Source: Actinobacteria bacterium HGW-Actinobacteria-7 (GTDB lineage Bacteria > Actinomycetota > Coriobacteriia > Anaerosomatales > PHET01). From it: a DNA stretch of 64,000 bases. Positions 727 through 60,083 of this stretch are shown piece after piece. Location of the stretch: contig PHET01000013.1 of assembly GCA_002841275.1 (NCBI GenBank), positions 1 to 64,000 of the forward strand, in the 5' to 3' direction. Both the position numbers and the translations under genes were made by a program. Position 1 is the stretch's first letter. Each line of letters begins with the position of its first letter. The notes under the pieces were generated by a model that did not search any database, was not told where the DNA came from, and saw only the letters and a list, made by a program, of their open reading frames with translations.

Positions 727-1886
727 CGGCTCTTCGCATCGGCATGTTCGTCGACATGTATCTGCCTCATGTCAGCGGTGTCACCAACCATATCTCTCTG
801 TACAAGCGGCATTTCGAACAGTTGGGCCACGAGGTCTTCGTGTTCACGTTCGGCGACCAAGACCACATCGACACCGAGCCCAACGTGATTCGCTCGCCCG
901 GCATGCCGTGGGGCCGGACGGGGTGGCGCTTCGCCCCGGCGCTCAGTGCACCCGCTCGGGAGCTTGTCCCGACCCTCGACATCGCGCATGCCCACCATCC
1001 GTTCCAGAGCGGGCGGCTGCTGGTTCCCTTGTGCAAGCGTCACGGTATCCCGCTCGTATTCACGAACCACACCCGCTACGACCTGTATTCCGACGCCTAC
1101 GCATCGCTGGTTCCGCGATCGCTGCGCTACGCGTTTCTCCGTTGGCAGCTGAGCCATTTCGACCGTGCCTGTGACCTTGTGATCGCACCCGCCCAGAGCA
1201 TCGCTTCGTGGCTCGAGGAGTTTTGCGGCTTCGCGGACGCGGTGACGATTCCCAACGGCATCGACGTGCAGCGCTTCTCCAATCCGGAACACCCCGTCAG
1301 CCGAGAAGAGCTGGGTTTCGCTCACGATGACGTCGTATTCTGCTACGCCGGTCGATTGGGTCCCGAGAAGAACACCGAGTGGCTGGCTCGCGAGTTCGTG
1401 ATGGCCGCACACAGGAGTCCGCGAGCGCGCTTGCTCGTGGTAGGCGACGGGCCGTCACGCATGGCGGCCAGCGCAGTAATCGATCAGGCGGGACTCACGG
1501 AGCGCGCGGTATTCACCGGCATGCAGTCATACGACCGCATACCCGCGCTCGAGGCTGCTGCTGATGTCTTCGTGACCGGCTCGGTCAGCGAAGTGCATCC
1601 CCTTGTCGTGCTTGAGGCGATGGCCGCCGGCCTTCCCGTTGTCGCGGTGAGTTCTCCGGGCATCGCCGACACCGTGCGCGACGGATCCACGGGCCTCCTT
1701 GCTCCCACTGCGACAGACGGTGCGCTTGCCGATCGCATGGTTGCGCTTGCCACTGACGATGCCGCGTTGGCGTCAATGGCCCAACATGCTCGCGCTGCCT
1801 CAATGGCCTTCGGATTCGATCAGACCGCAGATGTCGTCTTGCAGCACTACCAGCGACTCGTCAGCTCCAGGAAGCATACTCGGTGA
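723..1886 (+). CDS. Glycosyltransferase family 4 (GT-B)
   Basis: GTG start overlapping upstream stop (GTGA); GRLGPEKNTEWL and SEVHPLVVLEAMAAGLPVVA motifs. Confidence 0.85.
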   Translation: MTALRIGMFVDMYLPHVSGVTNHISLYKRHFEQLGHEVFVFTFGDQDHIDTEPNVIRSPGMPWGRTGWRFAPALSAPARELVPTLDIAHAHHPFQSGRLLVPLCKRHGIPLVFTNHTRYDLYSDAYASLVPRSLRYAFLRWQLSHFDRACDLVIAPAQSIASWLEEFCGFADAVTIPNGIDVQRFSNPEHPVSREELGFAHDDVVFCYAGRLGPEKNTEWLAREFVMAAHRSPRARLLVVGDGPSRMAASAVIDQAGLTERAVFTGMQSYDRIPALEAAADVFVTGSVSEVHPLVVLEAMAAGLPVVAVSSPGIADTVRDGSTGLLAPTATDGALADRMVALATDDAALASMAQHARAASMAFGFDQTADVVLQHYQRLVSSRKHTR

Positions 1887-2572
1887 ACGCGGGCGACCTC
1901 AGCGCCGCGCTTGCTTTGGGTGCCGCTGCGTTCGTCGTCGGACTGTCAGGAGCGATGTCACCAGGACCCTACCTCACCGTGACCATCACGCGGACCGTGC
2001 AGCGCGGTTGGTTCTCGGCGGGACTGATGCTGGTGGGCCATGCGCTGCTTGAGGGAGCATTGCTCGTCGGCTTCGCGTTTGGGCTCCAGCACTTCCTACA
2101 GCAACCTCTGGTCACAACCGTCATGGCACTGGCCGGCGGGGCCGTCCTGCTCTGGATGGGCTACGGGCTGCTCTCGGGCGTCTGGAGCGGTGACATCGTG
2201 CGTGACCTGGAGGTTGCGGAGCACGCTGACGGGCGGGCCGCACCGTCTCACGCCGGCTCGATTGTCCAGGGAATCGTCGTCTCACTCTCGAATCCGTACT
2301 GGACGCTGTGGTGGGCGACGATCGGCCTCAAGTTGGCGAGTGACGGACTCGCCATCGGCCCGGTGGGTGTGGCCGCGTTCTTCCTCGGCCACCAGCTTGC
2401 CGACTGGTCGTGGTACGCGCTCGTCATCGCCGCCGCCTCGCGGGGCAAGGAGCTGCTTACACCAGGGCTCTACCGCTCTGTCATGGGTGTGCTGGCGGTG
2501 CTGCTCGTCTACATCGGTGCCCGGTTCGTGGCATCCGGATTCGGCATCGAACTCCCCTGGCTGCCGTTCTGA
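1883..2572 (+). CDS. LysE family translocator
   Basis: GTG start overlapping upstream stop; GAMSPGPYLTVTITRTVQRG N-terminus; hydrophobic helices. Confidence 0.75.
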   Translation: MNAGDLSAALALGAAAFVVGLSGAMSPGPYLTVTITRTVQRGWFSAGLMLVGHALLEGALLVGFAFGLQHFLQQPLVTTVMALAGGAVLLWMGYGLLSGVWSGDIVRDLEVAEHADGRAAPSHAGSIVQGIVVSLSNPYWTLWWATIGLKLASDGLAIGPVGVAAFFLGHQLADWSWYALVIAAASRGKELLTPGLYRSVMGVLAVLLVYIGARFVASGFGIELPWLPF

Positions 2573-2629
2573 ACGCTGGCCCCGGTACTCTGGTCCGCCC
2601 CGGAACCCCCCGTCGAGATCCACAGACGA

Positions 2630-2662
2630 CCGTGGACCCCGGCGCGATGCCGAGGTCCACGG
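2630..2662. terminator. Hairpin between convergent lysE-like gene and groEL
   Basis: CCGTGGACC...GGTCCACGG perfect 9-bp arms in convergent intergenic region; no clear T-tract. Confidence 0.5.
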
Positions 2663-2699
2663 TGTCAACTCATGAGTGCCAGTGCAGGTAGCCCAGTGG

Positions 2700-4346
<1,647 letters not shown>

Positions 4347-4389
4347 TCACATAGGTGGAAACGGGGTAACAGCGGTCTTCTCAGCAGAA

Positions 4390-4680
4390 CTAGCCCTCTA
4401 CGACCGCATAGATGTCGTCGGCGCGAAGGATGATGTACTCCTCGCCCTCAACCTTGACCTCGGTGCCACCGTACTTGCTGTAGATGACGGTGTCGCCAGC
4501 CTTGACGTCGAGCGCGATGCGCTCACCGGCGTCATTGAGCTTGCCCTCGCCTACGGCGATGACCTCGCCCTTCTGGGGCTTTTCCTTGGCGGTGTCTGCG
4601 AGGATGAGGCCCGACTTGGTCTGGGTCTCTGCCTCGGCCTGCTTCACGATCACGCGATCGCCCAGCGGCTTCAGATTCAT
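4390..4680 (-). CDS. groES: 10 kDa chaperonin GroES
   Basis: [40 protein letters not shown]. Confidence 0.98.
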
Positions 4681-4819
4681 TGACGTCCCTCCTCTTTCTG
4701 TGCGTTACGGACATCCGGACACGCGTCCGGGCGTTTCCTGCTTGGTCTCGCGACGCAGATGCGCGCTCCTGAGTTATACCCACCTGCTCCAGGAACCTGC
4801 GCGTCTACCCTTGAGAGTG

Positions 4820-4846
4820 CTGGCACTCGGATGCACGGAGTGCCAA
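4820..4846 (-). promoter_or_regulatory. CIRCE-like operator (HrcA site) upstream of groESL
   Basis: CTGGCACTC-N9-GAGTGCCAA; consensus TTAGCACTC-N9-GAGTGCTAA. Confidence 0.85.
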
Positions 4847-4855
4847 CGAGGTAGG

Positions 4856-4884
4856 ATTCTACCCGCACTCAGGGCTGCGTTCAA
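4856..4884 (-). promoter_or_regulatory. Sigma-A type promoter of groESL
   Basis: Minus strand TTGAAC-N17-TAGAAT, predicted start just upstream of CIRCE. Confidence 0.7.
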
Positions 4885-21369: not shown

Positions 21370-23193
21370 CTACTCCACCGTCACGGACTTGGCGAGGTTG
21401 CGCGGTTGATCCACGTTACACCCGCGCCGCTTCGCCACATAGTAGCTGAGCAACTGCAACGGAACAGTGGCCGGAATGGCCGAAAGTGCCTCGCTGGTCT
21501 GCGGGATGTGGAGAACGAACTCTGCATGGTTGCGGATGTCATCGTCACCCGAAGTGGCGACGGCTATCACCTGTGCACCACGGGCGCGAACCTCCTGGAT
21601 GTTGCTCACTACCTTCTCGTACGTGTGCCCCTGGGTGGCAACCACCACCACGGGGACCTGGTCGGTAATGAGCGCGATCGGTCCATGCTTCATCTCGCCA
21701 GCAGGATAGGCCTCCGCGTGTATGTAGCTGATCTCCTTGAGCTTCAGCGCACCTTCCATGGCCACCGGAACTCCCACTCCCCTTCCAAGGAACAGGGAAC
21801 TGGTGGCGTCCGCGAACAACTCGGCACACTCCTGAAGCTCCTCGAGGCTACCCAGTATCGCCTCCACGACATCGGGAAGCGTACTGAGCTCATCGAAGAT
21901 GCTCTGTACTCGTTCAGAACCCAGCGTGCCTTTGGCCTGCGCCAGCTTCAGCCCCAGCACGTTGAGCGCTGCGATCTGAGCAGTGAAGGTCTTGGTCGCA
22001 GCAACGCCTATCTCCGGGCCGGCGTGAGTATAGATGACGCCATCGGACTCGCGGGTCACGCGGGAACCGACGACGTTCGTTATCGCGATGACCTTTGCGC
22101 CCCGCAGACGCGCCTCGCGAACTCCGGCAAGCGTGTCCGCTGTCTCGCCGGACTGTGTGATGGCAACAACGAGCGTCTCATCATCGACGATGGGGTCGTT
22201 GTAGCGAAACTCGCTCGAGCACAAGACCTCGACCGGAATCCGCGCCCACTGCTCGATCAGTGACTTGGCGACAAAGCCGGCGTGCAACGACGTGCCGCAC
22301 GCGATCACGAACACTCGCGCGATGCCAGCGATCTCCTCGGCCGTCATGGCCAATTCCGACAGTTGTATCTCACCGTCGTTCATGCGCCCGCGCAGTGTCT
22401 CTCGAAGGGCCTTGGGCTGCTCGAATATCTCCTTGAGCATGAAGTCCTCGAAGCCGCCCTTCTCGGCGGCATCCAGATCCCATTCGACATGCAGCATCTC
22501 AGGCACGACCGGCCTGAGTGCCAAGTCGAACACATCGACCGAGTCCGCCGTGACAACCGCGATCTCCCCGTCGTGCAACACCACAACCTCACGCGTGAAC
22601 TCCAGCACCGCCGGAATATCACTGGCCACGATGTTCTCACCGTCTCCGGCGCCGATGATCAGCGGAGAGTCCTTGCGCGCCGCGACGATCACGTCCGGGT
22701 GGTCGAGATGGACCACGCCCAGCGCGTAGGCACCTTCGAGGCGCTTCAGCGACTTGGCCACGGCCACCTTCAGGTCACCCTCGTAGTAGCTCTCGATCAG
22801 ATGCGCGACCATCTCCGTGTCGGTCTCGGAACGGATCATGTGGCCGGTCGCCCGAAGCTCTTCTCTGAGCTCGACGTAGTTCTCGATGATGCCGTTGTGC
22901 ACGATCGCGATCCGCTCGGTGCAGTCGCGGTGAGGGTGGGCGTTCTCTTCGCTCGGCTTGCCATGCGTCGCCCAGCGCGTGTGTCCGATTCCAACGTTGC
23001 CCGCAACAGGGCTCGTTCCGAGCGCGTTTTGCAGATTGACCAATTTGCCCACGCGGCGCGTGGTCGTGAGCTCTCCGGCATCGATGATGGCCACACCAGC
23101 CGAATCGTATCCACGGTACTCAAGTCTTGCGAGCCCACTCAGCAAGACGTCACTTGCCTGCCTGGGTCCGATGTATCCGACGATTCCACACAT
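21370..23193 (-). CDS. glmS: Glutamine-fructose-6-phosphate aminotransferase (isomerizing)
   Basis: MCGIVGYIGPRQASDVLLSGLARLEYRGYDSAG; ends PRNLAKSVTVE. Confidence 0.98.
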   Translation of the reverse strand: MCGIVGYIGPRQASDVLLSGLARLEYRGYDSAGVAIIDAGELTTTRRVGKLVNLQNALGTSPVAGNVGIGHTRWATHGKPSEENAHPHRDCTERIAIVHNGIIENYVELREELRATGHMIRSETDTEMVAHLIESYYEGDLKVAVAKSLKRLEGAYALGVVHLDHPDVIVAARKDSPLIIGAGDGENIVASDIPAVLEFTREVVVLHDGEIAVVTADSVDVFDLALRPVVPEMLHVEWDLDAAEKGGFEDFMLKEIFEQPKALRETLRGRMNDGEIQLSELAMTAEEIAGIARVFVIACGTSLHAGFVAKSLIEQWARIPVEVLCSSEFRYNDPIVDDETLVVAITQSGETADTLAGVREARLRGAKVIAITNVVGSRVTRESDGVIYTHAGPEIGVAATKTFTAQIAALNVLGLKLAQAKGTLGSERVQSIFDELSTLPDVVEAILGSLEELQECAELFADATSSLFLGRGVGVPVAMEGALKLKEISYIHAEAYPAGEMKHGPIALITDQVPVVVVATQGHTYEKVVSNIQEVRARGAQVIAVATSGDDDIRNHAEFVLHIPQTSEALSAIPATVPLQLLSYYVAKRRGCNVDQPRNLAKSVTVE

Positions 23194-23257: not shown

Positions 23258-23456
23258 TGCCCCGGGGTCACGCTTGAACTCGGATCGCAGCCGCTTTGTC
23301 ACTGCGGTCGCCCGCAGGATTTGTCGGCAACGTATCGACTCCGGTGAGCCGGAGGGCCATCCGCCGAATGTTCGATAAGCCCTCACCTCGTCGACTGGCT
23401 CTGCGAGAGCATCTCGCGCGACACCGTGTCAGCGGTGCCTTGCCAGTCCTGGCGCT
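23258..23456 (-). ncRNA. glmS ribozyme/riboswitch
   Basis: Minus strand A^GCGCCaggactggc...gccagtcGACGAGGtgagggcTTATCGAacaTTCGGCGGATGgccctCCGGCT; P1 GACTGGC/GCCAGTC, GAGGGC/GCCCTC pairing; directly upstream of glmS. Confidence 0.92.
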
Positions 23457-23515
23457 TGCAACACATCAGATCAACGATGGGCAACTCCTCTCACTCGGAT
23501 ACCGGTGCCATCACG

Positions 23516-23524
23516 ATTGTATCA
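23516..23524 (-). promoter_or_regulatory. Possible extended -10 promoter for glmS ribozyme-mRNA
   Basis: TGATACAAT on minus strand about 60 nt upstream of ribozyme core; weak -35. Confidence 0.35.
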
Positions 23525-23594: not shown

Positions 23595-24938
23595 CTATGC
23601 CTGATTGAGTTCGGCCTCAACCACCGCGACCAACCGGTCTGCAACCTCTTGTGCACGCAGCTGTTCGGCGGCCTCGACCATCACGCGAACCAGGGGTTCC
23701 GTCCCGCTCGCACGAACGAGGACACGTCCCGAGTCGCCCAGCTCCGCCTCTGCGGCATGAATCGCCTCGCCCAAGGCAACACTGGTCGCAAGCCGGGAAC
23801 GGTCTTCGACGTGAACGTTCTCGAGTACTTGCGGATAGTGCGTCATCACCGAGACGAGCTCGGAGACGGATCTGCCATCCGTGCGCGCCATACACGCGAA
23901 CTGCAACGCGGTCACCAAGCCATCCCCAGTGGTGTTGTGATCCAGGAAGATGATGTGACCTGACTGCTCACCGCCCAGGTTCGCCTCCATGGCCTGCATC
24001 TGCTCGAGGACGTAGCGATCGCCGACTTTGGTCTTGACCACCTGAATGCCTGCCTCGCGCATCGCGACTTCGAACCCTAGATTCGCCATGACCGTGGATA
24101 CCACGGTGTTTCCCGCCAACCTGCCGGCCCGGGCCATGTGCACCGCGCACACAGCCATAATCTGGTCGCCGTCAACCGGCACGCCCCGCTCATCGACCAT
24201 CAGGACCCTGTCGGCGTCGCCGTCGTGTGCGAGACCCATCGCGAAACCGCCCGCGCGCACCAGCTCGCCGAGCGGATCCAGGTTGGTCGAACCGCATCCC
24301 ACGTTGATGTCCATGCCGTCGTACTCACAGTTGATGGCCACAACCTCCGCGCCCAATCTTCTGAGCGCCTCCGGAGTGGAGATTGCAGCCGCGCCATGCC
24401 CGCAGTCCACAGCGATCCTGAGTCCCGACAGGCCGCACTCAACCGTCGAGACTGCATGCCCGATGTAGCGCTCCAGCGCATCCTCGATGTGCTCGACACT
24501 ACCCACACGCGAGCCTACCGGCCGCTGCCAGTCGCGCTCGCCGAAACAGAAGGCTTCAATCTCGTCTTCAAGCTCGTCGGGCAGCTTCAGGCCTTCTCGG
24601 CTGAAGAGTTTGATGCCGTTGTACTCGGGGGGGTTGTGACTTGCCGAGATGACCACTCCACCATCCGCGCCCAACTCACGTACGAGGTGCGCCACACCCG
24701 GAGTCGGGATGACGCCGCACAGCAGTGCGTCACCTCCCCCGGCGGTGATACCGGCAACCAGCGCCGCTTCGAGCATCTGCCCGCTGCGTCGCGTGTCGCG
24801 TCCCACGACGATACGTCCCGCGCCACGGTCGCCCAGGAAGTGTCCGGCGGCCTCACCGAGCTTGAAGGTCAACTCCGGGCTCAAGTGGGCGTTGGCTATG
24901 CCGCGAACCCCATCGGTACCGAACAGTCTTGTGCCCAC
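23595..24938 (-). CDS. glmM: Phosphoglucosamine mutase
   Basis: LFGTDGVRGIAN; VVISASHNPPEYNGIKLF; DGDADRVLMVDERG. Confidence 0.97.
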   Translation of the reverse strand: MGTRLFGTDGVRGIANAHLSPELTFKLGEAAGHFLGDRGAGRIVVGRDTRRSGQMLEAALVAGITAGGGDALLCGVIPTPGVAHLVRELGADGGVVISASHNPPEYNGIKLFSREGLKLPDELEDEIEAFCFGERDWQRPVGSRVGSVEHIEDALERYIGHAVSTVECGLSGLRIAVDCGHGAAAISTPEALRRLGAEVVAINCEYDGMDINVGCGSTNLDPLGELVRAGGFAMGLAHDGDADRVLMVDERGVPVDGDQIMAVCAVHMARAGRLAGNTVVSTVMANLGFEVAMREAGIQVVKTKVGDRYVLEQMQAMEANLGGEQSGHIIFLDHNTTGDGLVTALQFACMARTDGRSVSELVSVMTHYPQVLENVHVEDRSRLATSVALGEAIHAAEAELGDSGRVLVRASGTEPLVRVMVEAAEQLRAQEVADRLVAVVEAELNQA

Positions 24939-60006: not shown

Positions 60007-60083
60007 TGGCAGGCCAGGAGGGGCTCGAACCCCCAACATCCGGTTTTGGAGACCGGCGCTCTACCAATTGGAGCTACTTATGA
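60007..60083 (-). tRNA. tRNA-Trp (CCA) missing a complementary 5' acceptor strand (probably incomplete)
   Basis: Anticodon arm CCGGT-CTCCAAA-ACCGG, T arm, D arm and 3' CTGGCCT-G-CCA present; 5' side reads TCATAAG instead of AGGCCAG. Confidence 0.7.

Follow-up and report, generated by a model that had tools for sequence, protein, structure and literature searches.

The gap between glmM and glmS in the DNA analysed here (the window: 64,000 nucleotides of contig PHET01000013.1 from Actinobacteria bacterium HGW-Actinobacteria-7) carries on its minus strand an RNA that, judged from its sequence, is a genuine glmS ribozyme and an ordinary, well conserved member of family RF00234. It is very probably functional and exerts negative feedback on GlmS, and its conservation and the GlmS tree establish such ribozymes as inherited and routine regulators in a lineage other than the Firmicutes, for which 45 close homologues with strong covariation are now available. 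The leader upstream of its cleavage site contains a Shine-Dalgarno (SD)-like element with no open reading frame (ORF), which offers a testable answer to the question of why intact glmS message stays stable until self-cleavage. Both this leader element and the relatives in which the ribozyme has other target genes may merit specialist follow-up.

The identity of the RNA was established with Rfam cmscan, which returned a significant, full-length match to RF00234 (model positions 1–167 of 167) at 23276–23467 on the minus strand, scoring 99.3 bits against a gathering score of 37 (E 5.4e-22). This is the covariance-model search that the original prediction had proposed as its check, and the result, together with flanking genes that both exceed their NCBIfam cut-offs, upholds the placement of a glmS ribozyme in the glmM–glmS gap. 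The predicted span of 23258–23460 had the right location, but its ends were off by about 7–18 bases relative to the covariance model. The RNA ends shortly before glmS, as had been noted, with 82 nt between its 3′ end and the glmS ATG (23193) on the same strand. Upstream lies glmM, and downstream of the ribozyme follow glmS, acpS and a gene for NAD(P)H-hydrate epimerase/dehydratase. The principal features are:

21370–23193, minus strand: glmS, the target gene, encoding glutamine--fructose-6-phosphate transaminase of 607 aa (TIGR01135, 842.5 bits, cut-off 418)
23276–23467, minus strand: full-length glmS ribozyme (RF00234) with P1, P2, the P2.1 and P2.2 core, P3, the P3.1 pseudoknot, P4 and P4.1, assigned by cmscan and covariation
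23595–24938, minus strand: glmM, phosphoglucosamine mutase, 447 aa, the upstream neighbour (TIGR01455, 553.8 bits, cut-off 447.6)

The ribozyme is present as a single copy in the host genome (2.53 Mb searched) and is one of five Rfam matches over threshold in the window, the other four being tRNAs. One Rfam tRNA match, at 60016–60078 on the minus strand (41 bits, anticodon loop CTCCAAA, tRNA-Trp-like), is absent from the ARAGORN output.

At the level of individual motifs, the core strands and the P1 and P2 pairings quoted in the original prediction were all found in the right order, and the covariance model places the cleavage site exactly where it had been predicted, between 23456 and 23455. 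GCGCC occupies 23455–23451, P1 is formed by GACTGGC (23448–23442) and GCCAGTC (23399–23393), and P2 by GAGGGC (23384–23379) and GCCCTC (23357–23352), all on the minus strand. The corresponding elements are:

23455–23456, minus strand: predicted self-cleavage site, A(-1) at 23456 and G(1) at 23455, by homology to the glmS consensus
23393–23448, minus strand: P1 carrying two inserted hairpins, P1a (GGCACCG..CGGTGTC) and P1b (GCGAGA..TCTCGC), predicted by folding to form a three-way junction
23372–23392, minus strand: core strand GACGAGG (23392–23386), the P2 5′ strand and TTATCGA (23378–23372), from the sequence
23352–23368, minus strand: core strand TTCGGCGGATG (23368–23358) and the P2 3′ strand GCCCTC, from the sequence

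The predicted P1 junction folds at -29.8 to -32.8 kcal/mol (z -2.4), and both members of its family that also carry the ribozyme (L121 and L122) have similar P1 inserts.

The fold was examined in an alignment of 45 ribozymes from the host's order. AGCGCC, GACGAGG, ATCGA and TCGGCGG are invariant across these sequences and all are present in the window. The named structure is paired in 96.4% of cells, and compensatory changes, affecting both sides of a pair, were identified in 26 of the 39 tested pairs, including pairs of P3.1. Double-changed cells numbered 206, where column shuffles yielded 58.2 (sd 9.9); the covariation score was 0.369, versus at most 0.087 for slid versions of the structure, which were at most 46% paired. 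Covarying helices comprise P1, P2 (100% paired, 5/6 pairs covarying), P3, the P3.1 pseudoknot (91% paired, 4/5 pairs covarying), P4 and P4.1; the P2.1 and P2.2 strands are invariant, hence covariation is uninformative for both. Unguided RNAalifold recovered P1, P2 and P4 as well as hairpin P4.1 and a long-range pairing of the P3 loop with the 3′ end, the counterpart of P3.1 in the known fold. The double-pseudoknot fold is supported by covariation. Single non-standard pairs in P1, P3 and P4 of the window copy might point to a degenerate, inactive ribozyme kept by chance or merely as a structured leader, but this is highly improbable: the strands of the active site are complete and do not vary within the order, the helices are kept by compensatory change, which decay would destroy, and relatives without the ribozyme show no remnant of it.

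The window RNA shares with RF00234 ribozymes of the B. subtilis and B. anthracis type (P3–P4) the consensus, cleavage site, core, P3.1 and P4, as well as a site directly upstream of glmS and the presence of RNase J in the host. It differs from them in being G+C-rich, in the replacement of the P1 loop by the two hairpins of the three-way junction and in its location within a glmM–glmS cluster; the ORF-less SD of its leader also occurs in many Bacillota members and is therefore not unique. In B. subtilis, cleavage close to the 5′ end is triggered by binding of glucosamine-6-phosphate (GlcN6P), and RNase J1 degrades the 5′-OH product (PMC3997798, PMC11780869). The host of the window encodes two RNase J homologues (L203 and L204; 577 and 560 bits, TIGR00649 cut-off 400). 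These two genes, together with the fold, core and context, make feedback through cleavage and decay the most likely mechanism, with cleavage, GlcN6P dependence and RNase J decay carried over from the family and RNase J assumed to act on 5′-OH ends in this lineage. The message would start from a promoter in the glmM–glmS gap, ~54 nt before the cleavage site. Plentiful GlcN6P would then fill the ribozyme pocket as cofactor, the RNA would cut itself between 23456 and 23455 to leave a 5′-hydroxyl end, and RNase J would degrade the 5′-hydroxyl product, such that GlmS synthesis would fall.

The leader upstream of the cleavage site has two recognisable elements:

23516–23524, minus strand: predicted promoter with extended -10 TGATACAAT and a predicted transcription start at about 23509, from the sequence and a like element similarly placed in relatives
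23485–23492, minus strand: Shine-Dalgarno-like element GAGAGGAG, located on the 5′ side of the cleavage site and lacking a usable ORF, identified by its anti-SD duplex

In relatives an extended -10 (TGnTAnnnT) precedes the cleavage site by about 60 nt; a strict -35/-10 sigma-70 scan of the gap gave no promoter match, and a terminator scan of the glmM–glmS gap found none. The leader that cleavage would remove is 54 nt long. Nearly all order members have an AGGAG-like SD element ~20 nt after the predicted start. In the window, the anti-SD duplex of GAGAGGAG reaches -12.7 kcal/mol, and shuffles give a p of about 0.02 for the window as well as for its family. The calculation used the usual anti-SD sequence, which was assumed and not read from the host genome, where the 16S tail GGATCACCTCCTTTCT had no exact match. 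When the best 16S-tail duplex between positions -12 and -52 was compared with dinucleotide shuffles, the leader SD had p<0.05 in 34 of the 45 order members, with a mean of -13.5 kcal/mol, compared with 1/45 in a control window covering the next 40 bases upstream and 2/45 in one between the ribozyme and glmS. This mean exceeds in strength that of the true glmS ribosome sites (-10.5 kcal/mol). A scan of the full leader reached p<0.05 in just 12/45 single leaders. Related sequences are not independent, and by family the result is weaker, with a median p below 0.05 in 7/14. Similar ORF-less SDs were also identified beyond the order: a sister family has them, several further families of the phylum have them at different distances, and they occur in 9/13 of the non-Paenibacillaceae Bacillota tested. 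Five ribozyme-less genomes of the order keep the promoter, and inspection of them revealed no second SD.

One possible reading, put forward tentatively, is that the leader SD is a candidate 5′ stabiliser of the STAB-SD type that cleavage severs. STAB-SD elements stabilise Bacillus mRNAs at the 5′ end (Agaisse and Lereclus 1996, cited in PMC3997798), and the likeness consists of a strong SD near the 5′ end, the lack of a usable start codon and occurrence in organisms with RNase J; ribosome-site protection in gsiB and hbs offers a further comparison. Unlike STAB-SD, the window element lies 5′ of a self-cleavage site and would thus be removable on demand, and a stabilising effect here is hypothetical. 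The ORF-less leader SD would allow a 30S subunit or a whole ribosome to settle close to the 5′ end, where it would shield the intact message from RNase J, and cleavage would both create an RNase J entry site and discard the ribosome shield. The glmS ribozymes of Actinomycetota and many Bacillota could accordingly form a two-part decay switch, in which cleavage removes a purpose-built 5′ stabiliser and opens RNase J entry, though we hold this generalisation, too, as doubtful; no statement of it was found in the literature searched, which covered a minority of the primary glmS papers. Against a stabiliser stand the Paenibacillaceae, whose ribozymes have no leader SD element, and the sister family f3, whose leader is paired, with the SD placed in its loop and not in an open stretch.

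Alternatively, the purine-rich leader element could act through RNA structure, for instance as a P0 helix or by competing with P2, and not through ribosome binding. Family f3 would fit such a role, as its leader pairs into a helix that ends at the cleavage site and shows sequence changes on both sides, but the leaders of the host's order are unstructured, folding no better than shuffles (mean z +0.3), and their element stays AGGAG-like where the P2 sequence changes, so that we consider structural action unlikely. A structured leader was rejected for the order on the same folding result. A leader hairpin seen by eye in the window (GATGGCA/TGCC(C)ATC) was likewise discarded, being neither the predicted minimum nor conserved. 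The f3 helix itself (AACGG../..CCGTT or AACAG../..CTGTT, about 45 bases upstream of the cleavage site; L155–L160 and L191–L202) may be an additional P0 domain whose loop contains the SD-like stretch. Far less credible than a structural role is that the leader SD serves as the ribosome site of a leader peptide translated through the cleavage site and P1, coupling the ribozyme to translation. An open frame (ATG TGT TGC ... TGA, start 23466, 27 codons) does run through P1 in the window, but it is not conserved in the order, where 1/45 members has a suitably spaced start codon followed by an ORF of at least 10 codons, and start codons behind the leader SD are rarer than chance (3/45 versus 13.2 expected; binomial p 2e-4, uncorrected for kinship); the leader peptide was therefore rejected.

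Whole-genome searches identified the glmS ribozyme in 59/297 genomes sampled across the phylum and in 65/400 genomes of the class. The host's order includes 49 carriers, counting the window's own genome, and at least 20 other genomes without a match, and the arrangement glmM–ribozyme–glmS is constant in the order wherever flanking sequence was covered. The original prediction had described the ribozyme as a less typical occurrence in comparison with Firmicutes, which is half right, as within its own lineage it is normal. In a GlmS tree of 131 sequences, the proteins of the host's order form one group (support 91), nested in a larger group (support 98) to which further ribozyme-bearing families of the phylum and Candidatus Solincola, a named actinomycete, also belong, so that most ribozyme carriers of the phylum stand together. 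Bacillota GlmS, with or without a ribozyme, falls on the other side of the tree; an exception is formed by the phylum families f31 and f33, which fall with Deinococcota. This grouping favours old vertical inheritance for the order, with a very old transfer still conceivable; the ribozyme is conserved in the order and common in the phylum. Recent horizontal transfer, a question for which the prediction had proposed a phylogeny, is unsupported: a recent arrival of the ribozyme from Firmicutes, alone or together with glmS, has next to no likelihood, for although the family is best known from that group and Bacillota GlmS was among the best named matches in a single-protein search (50–56%), the collection behind that search may omit near relatives, GlmS of the order joins other families of its phylum and Candidatus Solincola in the tree, away from Bacillota, and synteny is constant.

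The host had also been taken for an actinobacterium, which is probable from the GlmS tree and gene content. WhiB is a marker of many Actinomycetota, and none was found when it was sought in the host; the assignment to phylum is therefore probable, not proven. Ribozyme loss is indicated by five order genomes that keep the vertical GlmS (74–79% identity to that of the window) without the ribozyme, and other order members without it have a GlmS just 49–51% identical to the window's. Three of the latter, G324, G325 and G304 (L176, L177 and L178), have in place of the order's glmS a distant one whose product falls with Gemmatimonadota in the tree.

Relatives in which the ribozyme serves other amino-sugar or nitrogen genes would bear on how fixed the pairing of ribozyme and glmS is. 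For example, in six genomes of one genus in the same class (g306 of family f3) a glmS ribozyme lies immediately ahead of a distinct nagB, as at L158, where the ribozyme (3882–4031, plus strand) precedes nagB, encoding GlcN6P deaminase, at 4079–4870; L194, L196, L197, L200, L201 and L202 belong to the same set. The ribozyme-linked NagB scores 381 bits against TIGR00502 (cut-off 237), and its four full-length copies are 87–100% identical to each other and 37–41% identical to the relatives' ordinary NagB. The ribozyme core is intact in all six nagB-linked copies. Both glmS and nagB carry a ribozyme in G667, and in the other five genomes glmS has none. Because GlcN6P would turn this nagB off, the ribozyme-linked NagB may, as a speculation, run in the GlcN6P-forming direction. 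Neither this arrangement nor the glnA–glmS arrangement is mentioned in the titles and abstracts found, the main distribution papers lying outside the search. The latter occurs in family f27 (three AT-rich genomes), where the ribozyme lies before glnA (TIGR00653) and, in the genome checked, glmS stands directly behind; at L166 the ribozyme spans 1530–1772 (plus strand), glnA 1890–3221 and glmS begins at 3268, and L205, L206 and L207 belong to the same set. Through this arrangement, GlcN6P would govern glutamine supply and GlmS together. The cleavage-site strand of the glnA-linked copies read is GCGCA instead of GCGCC.
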